A program made the position numbers and the translations under genes. From an uncultured Succiniclasticum sp. (GTDB lineage Bacteria; Bacillota; Negativicutes; Acidaminococcales; Acidaminococcaceae), in the NCBI GenBank assembly GCA_905235335.1, contig CAJOKZ010000008.1:1-33220 (forward strand): a DNA stretch of 33,220 nt, in the 5' to 3' direction. A model generated the notes under the pieces. The model saw nothing but the letters and a program-made list of their open reading frames with translations, ran no database searches and had not been told where the DNA came from. Shown one piece after another: positions 28,138 to 33,220 of this stretch (position 1 is its first letter; each line of letters starts with the position of its first letter).

Positions 28138-28587
28138 ATGATTAACCTGAATGAGTATCTGTCAATCGGGCAAAACGCCGTTGTCCAAAAAGTTGTAAGT
28201 ACCGAAGACGCATCGGATAAATATATCAGCGCTTTTAAAGAGCTGCTGTCTGCCCCCCGACTGATCCACTGGGCCATTGACGCATCTTTGGATGCGGTGG
28301 ACCCGTATCTTCCGGAGGAATATTCCAGTATCGGCGCGATGATCGAATTTTCCTGTACGGCCCCTACCAGTGTGGGCATGACGGTAACGGTACACGCCAA
28401 AATTAAAGAAATTGGCGAACGGGATGTGGTCCTTGCGTTGGAAGCCTGGGATGAACAGGGGATCATCGGCACCGGCACCCACAGGCGAATCGTAGTGGAA
28501 GCAGAATCAGTGCTTAATAAGGCAAGGGAAAGGGTAAAAACGATTTCTTCCAGAAGAATTCTGAACTGGGCGAAGAAGAAACCGTGA
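28138..28587 (+). CDS. hot-dog fold thioesterase-like protein (FlK-like)
   Basis: 149-residue single hot-dog domain. The GMTVTVHAKIKEIGERDVVLALEAWDE sheet and the GTGTHRR end resemble acyl-CoA thioesterases of the fluoroacetyl-CoA thioesterase type. By hand alignment to FlK from memory, the triad T42/E50/H76 corresponds to A39, I47 and C73 here, so the classical catalytic residues appear to be replaced. It may use another mechanism or only bind acyl-CoA. GGAGAGG precedes ATG 28138. It follows the permease by 134 bases and ends in an unrelated gap; a terminator at 28750 may belong to it. Confidence 0.75.
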   Translation: MINLNEYLSIGQNAVVQKVVSTEDASDKYISAFKELLSAPRLIHWAIDASLDAVDPYLPEEYSSIGAMIEFSCTAPTSVGMTVTVHAKIKEIGERDVVLALEAWDEQGIIGTGTHRRIVVEAESVLNKARERVKTISSRRILNWAKKKP

Positions 28588-28749
28588 TCCGGGACAATTA
28601 CGGGAAACTGTCCCAGACCCCTGCGTCGCGGAAAATGATGCTGCGGAAGCAATGCTCTGTCTAAATTATCTGTCTAAAGTGAATAAAAGCAAAATAGTAA
28701 TACTCAAAAACAGTAATTTATTCCTATGCGAAAACTTCAGGTTTTTCTC

Positions 28750-28780
28750 ACAGCCGTGGAATTTCTTCGGCTGTTTTGTT
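28750..28780 (+). terminator. intrinsic terminator upstream of the RiPP region
   Basis: ACAGCCG (28750-28756) pairs with CGGCTGT (28768-28774), then TTTTGTT. It is overlapped by the next -10 element. Confidence 0.7.
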
Positions 28781-29097
28781 ATAATATAATACAAAAGAAT
28801 TAGAAATCTTGAAGGGTTAGGGTGACAGCCTTGCCATAGATTCAATTTGAAAGATGATACTTTTACCGGAGAGGTCCATGATGGTATCCTTGTCAGGGAC
28901 AGGGTGTTGCAAAGCAGCAGCCACAGTGCAACTGCGGGAAATATCTTTGGGTATTTCTGCTGCGCCCTTATGGTAGCGGGAGGCGTCTACCTTGTTGCAA
29001 GATCCGATTAAGGGGAAACTTTGCCTGATTCAGGGAACCATTGATTAATTCATTGGCACGCTGTTTTTTCTATCAGGTAAACAGGAGGAAGATTGCT
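28780..29097 (+). other. leader region of the radical SAM gene: TATAAT, structured RNA and/or small hidden frame
   Basis: Two overlapping TATAAT sequences (28780-28785, 28785-28790) start this interval. Stems are visible: GATAC/GTATC with an ACC/GGT core near 28855-28890, GCAGCAG with CTGCTGC bracketing a GAAATA/TATTTC hairpin, and GGTAG/CTACC. The same stretch holds an open frame from TTG 28847 to TAA 29011 (54 aa) whose end reads GNIFGYFCCALMVAGGVYLV, like a membrane helix, but without a ribosome site. I recognise no known riboswitch. Only one of the two readings is likely to be right. Confidence 0.3.
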
Positions 29098-31023
29098 ATG
29101 GAGATAAACCGGGAAGGTACTGTGGATGTGCTTTTTGTTTCCATGCCCTTCTGCGACGAATATATGCCCTGCCTGACTTTGGCCCTGTTCAAGTCGGTAC
29201 TGGCACGGGCGGGTATCAGAAGCCGCGTGGAGCACGAATATCTGTATTATGCCGTCCGTATCGGGCTGGAAAACTATCGGCGTATCATGCAGGTGTGTAC
29301 CATCGGTTATGGTCATGATTATTTTGCCTGTGAGACGATTTTTGCAGAGGCGGCCCACGGCAAAACACTTTCTTCGTTTGACGACTATATCCGCTGGATG
29401 CAGGAAAAACATCTGCCGGGGAAGGCCTTTGCCGGCCAGCAGCGGGAGGATACCCTGCGCAGCCTGACCCTGTTTCAGGAAGCCCACGCTATGGCAGAAG
29501 CCTATCTGGAAGAAGCCTGCGCCCGCATTATGGAACAACATCCGAAGATCGTAGCTTTCCTTTCCATGTTCCAGCAGCACAACGCGATGATCGCCCTGGC
29601 CCGGCGCCTGAAAAAGGAAAAGAACGCCCCCCTGATCCTGGCGGGGGGCGCTAACTGCGAAGGGGATGCGGGGGCGGCGCTGGCAGAATATGTGGAAGCC
29701 TTTGATTACGTTTTTACCGGCGAGGCCGATGAAATCCTGGCGCCGTTGTGCGCGCAGCTGTTGCGTGAGGGCGTTGTGCCGGACAGCCAGCTGCCGCCCG
29801 GCGTGGCATCCCGTACCAGGCTGAAAGCGGAGCCGGCGCGGGTCACGCAAAACCTGGACGGACTGCCTCTGCCGGATTTCAGCGATTACTACCGGGAAAG
29901 GGACGCATTGCTGCCTGAGATGAAGGGACAGTATATCGTTTTGGCGGAAGGTTCCCGGGGCTGCTGGTGGGCGGCCCGGCATCCCTGCCGCTTCTGCGGG
30001 CTGAACGGCAGTACGGCTCACATTTACCGGGCAAAAAGTACGGATCGCTTTGCGGATGAACTGGCGGAACTGGCCGGCCGTTATCCCGGCGCCCAGTGTT
30101 ATTTTTCCGACAACATCCTGAGCCTGGTCCATCAGAAGGAACTGCCTGCCGCGCTGTTGCAACGGGAGAAGTATCGCGAAAACAGGCTCCGGCTGTTTAC
30201 GGAAATCAAATCCAATATGCCGGAAGAGGACGTAAGACGTCTGGCAGAAGCCGGCTTTTTCTGGGTGCAGGCAGGCATTGAAAGTTTCTCCGACGGGATT
30301 CTGCGCCTGATGGGCAAGGGGGTTACCGCCATCCGGCAGGTGCAGACCCTGAAGCACTGCAATGCCTATGGGGTTGAAGTACTGTGGTACATCCTGGCAG
30401 GTACGCCGGGGGAAACCGAAGAACTCTGCCGGGAAGTCAATGAGGTACTGCCTAAAATTATGCATCTGTCCCATCCGGAAACGATAGCCCATATCATGTT
30501 CCACCGCTACAACGACTACATGCTGCATCCGGACGACTCTGTTCCGGCTCTGCGGCCGGACCGGGGTTACGATTTTGTATTTCCCGACAGGGACTTTATC
30601 CGCCGGACGGCTCACCTGTTCGCACCGGTGGATGAGGCGGAACTGGCCCGGTATTATGATTACCGGCGGATCGGGCCTGCCTACGAAACCCTCCATGAGC
30701 TGTTTGAAACCTGGAACAGTACCAGACAGCTTCTGTTGCTGAAGGACAAGGGCGACACGGTGAAAATTCTGGATACCCGTCTTATCGCACGGAAGAATTT
30801 ATATTATCTGCAGGGCGCCGAAGCAGAGGTGCTGCGGGCCTGCCGGAGCGTGATGCGGGAAGAAGAGCTGGTGAAAAAGTTAGCGGGGAATTATGGGGAA
30901 GCAAAGATAAAAAATGCGCTGGCATGGCTGGAGCAGGAAAATCTTCTGCTCCACATCGGCCCGGAATACCTGGCCCTGCCCATTGACCGGGACGCCGTAA
31001 AGCAAATCGGGACAACCGTATAA
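29098..31023 (+). CDS. B12-binding radical SAM RiPP maturase (rSAM_ocin_1-type)
   Basis: 641-residue protein with an N-terminal cobalamin-binding-like domain (start VDVLFVSMPFCDEYMP; LAGGANCEGD at about 180) and a radical SAM barrel. The cluster cysteines are C289, C297 and C300 in GCWWAARHPCRFCGLNG. This CX7CX2C with CWW and FCGLNG is the mark of ribosomal-peptide maturation radical SAM protein 1 family, whose members act on RiPP precursors, often as C-methyltransferases. A winged-helix-like tail (LVKKLAGNYGEAKIKNALAWL) may handle peptide. ATG 29098 follows AGGAGGAAG; an upstream in-frame ATG at 29041 has no site. The probable precursor lies about 1 kb downstream. Confidence 0.88.
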   Translation: MEINREGTVDVLFVSMPFCDEYMPCLTLALFKSVLARAGIRSRVEHEYLYYAVRIGLENYRRIMQVCTIGYGHDYFACETIFAEAAHGKTLSSFDDYIRWMQEKHLPGKAFAGQQREDTLRSLTLFQEAHAMAEAYLEEACARIMEQHPKIVAFLSMFQQHNAMIALARRLKKEKNAPLILAGGANCEGDAGAALAEYVEAFDYVFTGEADEILAPLCAQLLREGVVPDSQLPPGVASRTRLKAEPARVTQNLDGLPLPDFSDYYRERDALLPEMKGQYIVLAEGSRGCWWAARHPCRFCGLNGSTAHIYRAKSTDRFADELAELAGRYPGAQCYFSDNILSLVHQKELPAALLQREKYRENRLRLFTEIKSNMPEEDVRRLAEAGFFWVQAGIESFSDGILRLMGKGVTAIRQVQTLKHCNAYGVEVLWYILAGTPGETEELCREVNEVLPKIMHLSHPETIAHIMFHRYNDYMLHPDDSVPALRPDRGYDFVFPDRDFIRRTAHLFAPVDEAELARYYDYRRIGPAYETLHELFETWNSTRQLLLLKDKGDTVKILDTRLIARKNLYYLQGAEAEVLRACRSVMREEELVKKLAGNYGEAKIKNALAWLEQENLLLHIGPEYLALPIDRDAVKQIGTTV

Positions 31024-31084
31024 GGAGACATAAAAGAGGCGTTGCTGCCAGGCGTTAGACCGTGTATCAAACTTCTCAAGAATA

Positions 31085-31186
31085 TCCCGTTTCTATAAGC
31101 GGGAGAGGTTCACTTGCTTACGCAAATTCGCCAGACCCGCCTTCATCCCCCACCTAAGAGGTGGAGGACTTCTGGCGGATTAGGTT
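31085..31186. mobile_element. IS200/IS605-like end, solo remnant
   Basis: Outer stem CGCCAGA (31129-31135) / TCTGGCG (31171-31177) encloses CCACCT (31150-31155) / AGGTGG (31159-31164). A further TCCCG/CGGGA hairpin lies upstream around 31085-31103. The layout recalls the structured right ends that overlap tnpB guide RNAs. No transposase or tnpB is next to it. It sits between the radical SAM gene and the sigma gene. Confidence 0.45.
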
Positions 31187-31193
31187 AAAAAAA

Positions 31194-31222
31194 TTGAATC
31201 GCATCGGACAGGATGATATAAT
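31194..31222 (+). promoter_or_regulatory. sigma-A promoter of the ECF sigma gene
   Basis: TTGAAT (31194-31199), a 17-base spacer and perfect TATAAT (31217-31222). It starts only eight bases after the IS-like remnant, so the element may have shaped or placed this promoter. Confidence 0.8.
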
Positions 31223-31322
31223 AAATTATTCAAGATTTTGTATTTTACGGTACGCATTTTAGCGTTCCATGGCTGGGGGCATAAAGCGTAAAAAGGACGC
31301 TCTTGGAAAGAGGCTGAACCGG

Positions 31323-31844
31323 ATGAATCTCTTTTTCACTCTTGATGCCGAGACGGTTTATCGGAAATATTACCGGAAGGTTTATAACTACGTATATGGA
31401 CAGCTTCGCCACCGCGAGGCGGCAGAGGACGTGACGGCGGATGTGTTCGTCGCCGTGCTGGAAAAATCCGGCCAGTTTCGCGGACGGGAGGGAGCCGGCT
31501 TATCCACGTGGATATTCTCTATTGCGCGGAATAAGACCATAGATTACCAGCGGCGGGCGTCCTTTCATCGGGAGGAAAGCGTCTGGCTCGTGCCGGAGAA
31601 ACCTTCCGAAGTTATGGGGTGGACGAAAGCTGACAACTCGCTGCGGGAACCCGGGAATCCCGTAATAGGGCGCGTCATGGAAAAACTCTCCAAAGAAGAG
31701 CGCACTCTTATTGAACTGCGTTACGGGCTTGGTCTTACCAACGATGAGGTGGCAGGCATCATGGACATGAAAGCGAACACTGTCAGCCATCGTTACGGGC
31801 GTCTTTTAGCGAAGTGCCGGAAAATCGCCGGCGACATGGAATAA
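31323..31844 (+). CDS. ECF-type RNA polymerase sigma factor
   Basis: 173-residue sigma-70 family factor with only regions 2 and 4. Region 2 includes YRKYYRKVYNYVYGQLRHREAAEDVTADVF and LSTWIFSIARNKTIDYQRR. Region 4 includes LSKEERTLIELRYGLGLTNDEVAGIMDMKANTVSHRYGRL, the DNA-binding helix pair. No anti-sigma gene with a membrane segment is seen next to it. I choose ATG 31323 because GAGG (31310-31313) lies nine bases upstream; ATG 31269 has no ribosome site. An ECF-like promoter lies 27 bases after its end and probably drives the RiPP genes. Confidence 0.85.
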   Translation: MNLFFTLDAETVYRKYYRKVYNYVYGQLRHREAAEDVTADVFVAVLEKSGQFRGREGAGLSTWIFSIARNKTIDYQRRASFHREESVWLVPEKPSEVMGWTKADNSLREPGNPVIGRVMEKLSKEERTLIELRYGLGLTNDEVAGIMDMKANTVSHRYGRLLAKCRKIAGDME

Positions 31845-31870
31845 AAAAATTTGAAAATTTTTCAAAAAGC

Positions 31871-31896
31871 GTCCCTTTTTTGAAAGATGATTCGTC
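31871..31896 (+). promoter_or_regulatory. ECF-sigma-like promoter for the precursor gene
   Basis: GTCCC (31871-31875) and CGTC (31893-31896) are 17 bases apart, preceded by an A/T tract (GAAAATTTTTCAAAAAGC) and followed by TATATAAGTGAGAGG. CGTC in the -10 position and a long T-tract near the -35 are hallmarks of ECF promoters. The nearby sigma factor is the natural candidate to read it. Confidence 0.6.
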
Positions 31897-31958
31897 TATA
31901 TAAGTGAGAGGCAACTTTACATGACAAACACGGAGCAAAAAAGAAAGGAGCGGAGGCG

Positions 31959-32366
31959 ATGAATAATATGAATGAAACGGACGCCGTCCGCGAAATGGAT
32001 GCTTTTTTCCGGCGAGAGTTCAGGACCATGGATTTCGCCGCCGAAAATTCTGGCTTGGAAGGACGTCTCTGGCAAAAGATACAGGAAAGAATGTGCAAAG
32101 AAAAAAGGGAGGATTTTACAATGGCAAACACTGACAAAAAAGAATTTACGAAGGAACAGATTGAAATGGCGTTGGGCTGCGAGACCGTCGAGGAACTTCT
32201 GGCGCTGGCCAAAGACGGGGGCATCGAGATGACGAAAGAGGAGGCCGAGGTGTACATGGCAGAACTGGAGGACTTCGAACTGGATGACGCATCGCTCAAA
32301 AACGTGGCAGGCGGCCACCACCCGGGCACCGGAGTTCGCATTCCGCGTAAAAGATATGGCGGATAA
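31959..32366 (+). CDS. Nif11/NHLP-type RiPP precursor peptide (with in-frame N-terminal extension)
   Basis: The open frame encodes 135 aa from ATG 31959 (AAGGAG eight bases upstream). The last 81 aa can also start at ATG 32121 behind an optimal GGGAGG site. In that form it is a classical leader: charged helix with VEELLALAKDGGIEMTKEEA, then ELDDASLKNVAGG, a double-glycine leader end (G64-G65), and a 16-residue core HHPGTGVRIPRKRYGG. The core has His, Tyr, Thr, and many Arg/Lys but no Cys or Ser, so lanthionine or thiazole chemistry is not expected. The first 54 aa look coding and may be a separate small protein or a longer leader. The downstream Cache gene may be in the same operon. Confidence 0.75.
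   Translation: MNNMNETDAVREMDAFFRREFRTMDFAAENSGLEGRLWQKIQERMCKEKREDFTMANTDKKEFTKEQIEMALGCETVEELLALAKDGGIEMTKEEAEVYMAELEDFELDDASLKNVAGGHHPGTGVRIPRKRYGG
32107..32123 (+). promoter_or_regulatory. internal ribosome binding site deciding the precursor start
   Basis: GGGAGG (32107-32112) lies eight bases before ATG 32121, inside the longer open frame. This is stronger than needed by chance and suggests the 81-aa precursor is made from 32121, in addition to or instead of the 135-aa form. Confidence 0.6.
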
Positions 32367-32404
32367 ATAAAACATTACTCTAAAACGAAGGACTGACATT
32401 TGTC

Positions 32405-33220
32405 ATGGAAAAATCGCCAGACCGTTTTGGAATACAAAAATTTTTATTTAAGAGAAAATACGGCATAAGAGCACAGATACAGCGGATAATTTTTATCTGC
32501 TGTATTGTGTCTTTTTTGACAGTAAGCGTAATCGCTCTGGCGGGAATGTTCACGGCGCGGAAAAATACAATCGAGGACGGCAGTGAAATGGGCGGTCGGG
32601 CTGCCGAAATCACCGCCGATAAACTGGAAAACGCAGAGCGAAGGCGTATTTCGCTCTTGGCCCGCGAACGGGCAAAGGTGGTTTATTCCCAGCTCAAACG
32701 GCTGGAAGACCGTACAAGGCTTTTGTCCGGATGGATAAGCCATATGCTTGACCATCCCAATGATTACCCGCCGTATCCGATTTCTTTCCCGCGGGCGGAA
32801 AATGCGGGAACCGTTACGGCGCAGCTTGAGCTTGCTTCCAATACCGACTACGCTGGGTTGAAAGACGATATCGGACTTGTTGCCAATGTTTCGCCGTTTA
32901 TGGTCCGCCTGTCGGAGTATACCGGTGAAGGAACGGTAGTCTCTTTGGGGGATGAACAAGGATTTTACATTTCTGCCGATTCGGAGTCGGACAGGCATCT
33001 GACAACCGATGGCAGGCCCCTGCCTTTTGACCCGAGGACCCGTCCCTGGTACAAAAAGGCCAAAGAGGCTGGGGATTTTGTATTTACCGATGTATATAAC
33101 GATCTGTACAGCGGTCGGATGCGCCTTGGCTGCGCGTCGCCCTATTATCGGAACAACAAATTCAGCGGGGTTGCCGTGATCGCTTTCTATCTGTCTGCCA
33201 TGAACGATGCAGAGGCAAAG
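32405..33220 (+). CDS. membrane sensor with Cache domain, 3' partial
   Basis: The frame is open from ATG 32405 to the window end (272 codons seen). A membrane segment at about residues 25-45 (QRIIFICCIVSFLTVSVIAL) is followed by a long extracytoplasmic region. The FDPRTRPWYKKA ... FVFTDVYNDLYSGRMRLG stretch is typical of a dCache ligand-binding domain. The output domain lies outside the window. In related clusters such sensors often end in a SpoIIE-type phosphatase, but a GGDEF or chemotaxis output is just as possible from what is visible. GAAGGA lies 12 bases before the start. It probably follows the precursor in one transcript. Confidence 0.8.
   Translation, partial: MEKSPDRFGIQKFLFKRKYGIRAQIQRIIFICCIVSFLTVSVIALAGMFTARKNTIEDGSEMGGRAAEITADKLENAERRRISLLARERAKVVYSQLKRLEDRTRLLSGWISHMLDHPNDYPPYPISFPRAENAGTVTAQLELASNTDYAGLKDDIGLVANVSPFMVRLSEYTGEGTVVSLGDEQGFYISADSESDRHLTTDGRPLPFDPRTRPWYKKAKEAGDFVFTDVYNDLYSGRMRLGCASPYYRNNKFSGVAVIAFYLSAMNDAEAK

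Follow-up and report, generated by a model that had tools for sequence, protein, structure and literature searches.

A RiPP precursor gene coupled to an ECF sigma factor, between a B12 radical SAM maturase and a Cache sensor in Succiniclasticum

We analyzed a 33,220-nucleotide stretch of DNA from an uncultured Succiniclasticum sp. (the window, positions 1–33220 of the 42252-base contig C8; the assembly has 2.08 Mb and is 96% complete). Its end encodes, all on the forward strand, a B12-dependent radical S-adenosylmethionine (SAM) maturase, an extracytoplasmic function (ECF) sigma factor, the precursor of a ribosomally synthesized and post-translationally modified peptide (RiPP) and the front of a Cache-type sensor. 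ECF sigma factor, ECF-type promoter and RiPP precursor gene form a conserved unit. In this stretch, already marked by a first-pass annotation made from the sequence alone, the real interest is the sigma-coupled precursor between maturase and sensor. At about even confidence, we favor a reading in which an N-terminal segment of the precursor would act in an anti-sigma-like manner and tie sigma activity to precursor processing. To our knowledge, the regulation of RiPP families with dozens of precursors is little understood. If our reading is true, a precursor with its own sigma factor partner would be a compact feedback circuit that leads from making, cutting and exporting a peptide back to transcription.

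The sigma factor gene (31269–31844), which has homologs in related genomes, scored 86 bits against TIGR02937 (cut-off 42.9), confirming the annotation. It is a single copy in the genome and contains sigma regions 2 and 4 only (Sigma70_r2 and r4; PF04542 and PF08281 over cut-off), and its start is more likely the ATG at 31323, where the conserved part begins. Upstream lies a sigma-70-type promoter-like site of its own (TTGAAT-17-TATAAT, 31194–31222) that is kept in the related genome G013. Between sigma gene and precursor we find an ECF-type promoter motif (31864–31904), GTC..TTTT and GTCTATA with 23 nt between them. This motif reads AAAAAGCGTCCYTTTTTTGAA...CGTCTATATAAG in one group of loci, clade A, and CCTGTCAATTTT...ATTCGTATATATAA in the other, clade B. 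A genome-wide scan that allowed up to three mismatches located the clade A motif at four sites in the window genome, all upstream of precursors: the one on C8 and three others on contigs C43, C71 and C80, the last apparently the cut-off front of a gene on C60. Reversed patterns, used as controls, gave 0 matches genome-wide. The clade B motif occurred once per genome in five genomes, always between sigma gene and precursor; a clade B locus lies on contig C6 of G005 (core TCNLEGTSCWTLSS). In a wider comparison across two bacterial families, G[TGA]C..TTT and GT.TATA were found upstream of the segment with the 23-nt spacing at 20 of 29 loci, and at other spacings from 18 to 28 nt at none (shuffling expectation 0.000). 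The ECF-like promoter proposed earlier is borne out by these patterns, and the proposed expression of the precursor under the ECF sigma factor is supported at the sequence level. We infer that this particular sigma factor would use the motif at 31864–31904.

The precursor frame opens with a 54-residue segment (31959–32120) that is in frame with the leader. Homologs of the ECF sigma factor occur in the genus at seven further loci in six genomes, each followed by a gene with the segment EMDxxFRxxDFxxEN...LExRxW. At seven of the eight Succiniclasticum loci the segment, of 37–54 residues, continues in frame into a Nif11-type leader and core; in G008 it resides in a separate protein of 107 amino acids (aa), followed by a CefB-like radical SAM/SPASM gene. 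At one G013 locus (C127) the leader ATG has become ATT, so that the fused form alone has a normal start there. Across the segment, nonsynonymous divergence was lower than synonymous divergence (dN < dS) in the more diverged pairs. Of 14 Succiniclasticum genomes, seven have sigma factor as well as segment, and the other seven have neither (Fisher p 0.0006). In all, the segment profile gave matches in 27 of 380 Negativicutes genomes, of which that in G329, inside a 455-aa frame, is probably spurious. Those outside the genus are mainly in one family, with Selenomonadaceae as its nearest named records, where the segment forms separate proteins of 80–108 residues; in one genome of this family (G237) it is joined to a Nif11 leader once more. 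The sigma gene is found upstream of the segment, with the same orientation, at 20 loci from two families, and at 10 of these an NHLP ABC2 gene directly precedes the sigma gene. Adjacency to and co-occurrence with the cognate sigma gene, an anti-sigma trait, are thus found for the segment. From gene order, co-occurrence and promoter we have good confidence that the sigma factor would transcribe the precursor and has a dedicated partner in the segment. By word match, we found no open-access report of a precursor bearing a sigma-linked segment. Sigma gene, 23-nt-spaced promoter and EMDxxFRxxDF segment together give a signature for finding such systems.

The precursor itself had been described as a Nif11-type Gly-Gly peptide with a 16-residue core, and this description stands. 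Its frame starts at 31959 and has a second good in-frame start at 32121, where the leader, ending in VAGG (32121–32315), has its own start codon and Shine-Dalgarno sequence. The core HHPGTGVRIPRKRYGG follows (32316–32363, with the stop codon to 32366), giving a full product of 135 aa from segment, leader and core. As ribosome-binding sites are good at both starts, both precursor forms, with and without the segment, may be made. Against TIGR03798 the precursor scored 26.2 bits, under the cut-off of 32.3; a Selenomonadaceae homolog reached 30.5 bits on this profile, and another precursor 22.6 bits on PF07862 (cut-off 23.8). We therefore regard the precursor as a divergent relative and not as a scored TIGR03798 member. 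It has the leader motif ELxxxxLxxVAGG, the Gly-Gly site, the paralogous expansion and the NHLP exporter in the genome that mark Nif11-like precursors.

The same leader is common to about 130 relatives. In protein searches it matched 17 times in the window genome, including some contig-end fragments, and 2–31 times in nine other species of the genus. Family statistics from 113 complete precursors gave 99 distinct cores, with a median identity of 0.67 for leaders and of 0.25 for cores, the latter against 0.23 for shuffled cores. Succiniclasticum offers about 100 candidate cores from rumen bacteria. Cys is found in 107 of the 113 cores, and the window core and its G013 counterpart are among the six without it. 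With one Thr, no Ser and no Cys, HHPGTGVRIPRKRYGG agrees with the earlier statement that the product would not be a lanthipeptide. Prochlorosin/Nif11-type RiPP expansions likewise have many paralogous precursors per genome, conserved leaders with variable cores, a Gly-Gly site, the NHLP exporter set TIGR03794/03796/03797 and maturation in trans (PMC2887384). In contrast to these, the present family is from Negativicutes instead of cyanobacteria, and its maturases are radical SAM and B12 radical SAM enzymes instead of LanM. ECF sigma control and a sigma-linked precursor segment are further differences; that work never mentions sigma (PMC2887384).

Nif11-type leaders also occur in other arrangements. 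Two lineages have such a leader in front of a Hint (hedgehog/intein-type) autoprocessing domain (G013:C107:4970 onward, L176; and L210:630–1334), and the gene at L210, the G237 locus, sits directly behind the precursor fused to the sigma-linked segment. Two genes of G003 (C48:46923 and C40:45739) have Nif11-type leaders on longer C-termini, one resembling an HNH nuclease end (VHHVIWLSRGDK) and the other an unassigned domain, perhaps a capture of leaders by larger secreted proteins. A gene that resembles a precursor but has another kind of leader (MKKIALKDFIQTLL...GITGGDTWEYVYFDSWKWENNR) is located just ahead of a Nif11-type precursor in the window genome (C36:17613–17873; L026:8614–8874). Ahead of the first precursor on C15, positions 1–110 (L025) presumably correspond to a group II intron 3′ end.

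The separate segment proteins end in ELSEDELxxLAAAG and similar sequences, which we compare with ELSDEELEAVAGG, the sequence in which Nif11-type leaders typically end according to Haft, Basu and Mitchell (2010; PMC2887384). When aligned by eye, the Gly-Gly position is Ala-Ala in 20 of 21 separate proteins and Ala-Gly in the remaining one, in contrast to Gly-Gly in all eight fused proteins. Because related genomes are over-represented, this Ala-Ala pattern is a strong hint and not a statistic. The leader-like tail of the separate proteins is hence probably uncleavable, as judged from these residues.

Gene order, promoter motif, co-occurrence, in-frame fusion and leader-like tail are evident from the sequences, and we infer how the sigma factor might use its motif and bind the segment, with what sign it would be controlled and which roles exporter and Cache sensor could play. 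As the segment accompanies the sigma factor everywhere, the peptide may contribute to regulating its own synthesis. Expressed from a housekeeping-type promoter, the sigma factor would transcribe the precursor gene behind it and at least three more precursors in the genome. The segment would most likely be a small, probably helical, anti-sigma-like domain that binds the sigma factor; we assume binding and inhibition because of its small size, its probable helices and its position, as anti-sigma genes are usually near their sigma gene (PMC8103513). Unprocessed precursor would bind the sigma factor and keep it inactive for as long as such precursor accumulates. The amount of free segment could then change as the leader is bound, modification takes place and the NHLP exporter cuts at Gly-Gly, which would give the sigma factor a readout of the maturation and export machinery, and inhibition would shift when the exporter takes precursors. 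In Selenomonadaceae, a separate small protein might do the same job, its leader-like tail docking with Ala-Ala in place of a cleavable Gly-Gly.

Class II anti-sigma domains wrap around the outside of their sigma factor, and in pairs such as CnrH–CnrY and EcfG–NepR a small partner is likewise encoded beside the sigma gene and behind a sigma-type promoter (PMC8103513). In contrast to CnrY and NepR, with which we found no sequence similarity, the partner here is fused to a RiPP precursor or has a leader-like tail. More tentatively, and with somewhat more doubt than belief, we may speculate that the precursor doubles as the anti-sigma factor of its own sigma factor, in a FlgM-like RiPP circuit where processing or exporter occupancy sets transcription, and that the stand-alone Ala-Ala leader mimic of Selenomonadaceae senses the exporter. 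FlgM is an anti-sigma factor that is exported by the flagellar apparatus. The circuit would resemble it in making sigma activity depend on the status of an export apparatus, although proteins and exporter are different and the coupling is putative. Sigma-controlled bacteriocins and lantibiotics are known from UviA, MibX/MibW and PspX/PspW, where an alternative sigma factor also drives antimicrobial-peptide genes. In MibX/MibW and PspX/PspW, however, a membrane protein of its own acts as anti-sigma factor, whereas here this factor would be part of the precursor.

Several points weigh against the anti-sigma-like segment. Profile searches with it in Pfam and PDB gave no match. A single-sequence AlphaFold prediction of sigma factor and precursor, joined into one chain, was uninformative, with a predicted local distance difference test score (pLDDT) of 36.5. 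The separate segment proteins stem from related genomes, so their counts are not independent. In most loci, an internal start would yield a precursor without the segment. Moreover, C39-type cleavage occurs on the cytosolic side, hence cleavage alone would not export the segment.

Alternatively, the segment could be no more than an extended leader by which the precursor docks to the exporter or a modifying enzyme, with sigma control not involving it. Such docking would fit the attachment of the segment to a RiPP leader in eight loci, the leader-like ends of the separate proteins and the CefB-like radical SAM/SPASM gene found 3′ in several loci. We nevertheless consider it unlikely, as the segment tracks the sigma factor and not precursors or maturases. 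Three genomes without sigma factor and segment (G001, G002 and G011) have precursors that never bear the segment, and most precursors of sigma-positive genomes also lack it.

The maturase gene (29098–31023) was recognized before by its CWW...FCGLNG signature, and its identity is firm. It scored 480.9 bits against TIGR03975 (rSAM_ocin_1; cut-off 281.85) over profile positions 1–606 of 606, and is the only TIGR03975 copy in the genome. PF04055 scored 58.7 bits and PF02310 25.4 bits, the latter under its cut-off of 32.1. The stretch CWW.....C..FC[GA]LNG is invariant in all 11 full-length sequences compared, and Succiniclasticum ruminis DSM 9236 is among its closest relatives with a name. An AlphaFold model from ten homologs (pLDDT 70) had cobalamin radical SAM enzymes as its best PDB matches, with OxsB, TsrM, TokK and CysS among them. 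The protein thus belongs to the cobalamin-dependent radical SAM RiPP C-methyltransferases in score and architecture, with core methylation as its predicted activity; it differs in a CX7CX2C spacing that is common to all homologs found in this analysis.

Adjacent genes on one strand, a Nif11-type leader in common and a single TIGR03975 copy could suggest that the maturase modifies the neighboring core HHPGTGVRIPRKRYGG, in one biosynthetic cluster with sigma factor, precursor and sensor. This core may give a methylated basic peptide. Relatives, however, have each gene without the other, in both directions. In a search of 100 genomes, the maturase occurred in just three others, all of the same genus (G003, G005 and G012) and 83–84% identical. 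All three have a precursor with the core [VI]KTCYMVDGC[AS]FKCGTLKDC directly upstream and the genes for HlyD, NHLP HlyD, ABC1 (C39 peptidase) and ABC2 directly downstream. Conversely, G013 retains sigma factor, precursor and sensor without such a maturase; the region upstream of its ECF gene instead contains a further precursor and the last part of a CefB-like radical SAM gene. Absence of the precursor from relatives that keep the maturase had been named in advance as weakening the pairing, and this is in part what we see, with a different, Cys-rich precursor in its place. Nor is the core conserved even in the nearest relative (RKGGGGSFPKVY). Maturase and adjacent precursor as one pair, hence, we deem improbable, and the proposed start of a RiPP cluster also fell, since a TPR protein and housekeeping-type genes come beyond the sensor. 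The exporter that had been looked for downstream is present in the genome, as an NHLP operon on contig C43 without a maturase, and is thus not adjacent.

A hairpin-capable repeat past the maturase stop (31114–31186) looks like a mobile-element end, presumably of IS200/IS605 type, and has a second copy on C57 (86% over 79 nt). Exactly at its end, from 31187 onward, the window aligns with the region upstream of the ECF gene in G013. This junction repeat and alignment edge suggest an insertion, most simply a move of the maturase to its place beside the sigma gene. The maturase is probably a displaced member of the exporter operon and probably acts in trans on other precursors encoded in the genome; as the single TIGR03975 copy, it can reach any substrate there only in trans. 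As a candidate substrate, a precursor on C65 (REVCYTNGCALKCDTLGR) resembles the cognate core of the relatives, yet G013, which has no maturase, has a similar core (RDVCYTNGCALKCVNNL). Upstream of the maturase (28750–28796) stands a hairpin followed by a T run and a TATAAT box, a genus-wide repeat that combines terminator and promoter. The hairpin-promoter ACAGCC...GGCTGTTTTGTTATAAT upstream of the maturase was dropped as an operator common to maturase and precursors, being a genus-wide repeat.

That the C-terminus encoded by the sigma-linked gene is a pheromone-like signaling peptide, sensed by the Cache protein and feeding back on the sigma factor, is very improbable: the cores of the window and its nearest relative, like a number of Selenomonadaceae tails, are short and basic, have no Cys and often contain [FLIM]P[KR] (RIPRKRY, SFPKVY, GKLPKY, GKFPKN, KMPRKK), unlike most complete precursors, and the sensor gene stands 3′ of the precursor in G000 and G013, but other sigma-fused cores have Cys (TCTLEGTSCWTLSN, ICWTDCPKFTHICQSDC), the flanks retrieved for the clade B loci showed no such sensor gene, and the motif was noticed post hoc.

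The Cache membrane sensor named in the first-pass annotation is indeed encoded behind the precursor, the window holding its dCache part alone (32405–33220). The gene runs on past the window, and the whole protein is a dCache-HAMP-SpoIIE/PP2C phosphatase of 740 aa. Beside clade A loci it may bring in an outside signal. A Schwartzia assembly (L114) with the gene order maturase, SPASM-like gene and Cache-PP2C loosely links the sensor to such clusters. An Rfam search of 28500–33220 gave no match, PADLOC nothing convincing, and a search of viral contigs no relatives.

In or near the NHLP exporter operon, we observed a protein of about 560–690 aa with a SPASM-like C-terminus (C43:22921–24999, L027:16922–19000; homologs in L074, L112 and L114). 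The two Succiniclasticum copies read have no recognizable radical SAM CxxxCxxC, and the protein is possibly a pseudo-enzyme partner. Directly behind this gene the first codons of the Cache-PP2C gene recur, in a 35-bp stretch that is 91% identical between window positions 32402–32436 and C43:22873–22907, apparently a relic of a former SPASM–Cache order.

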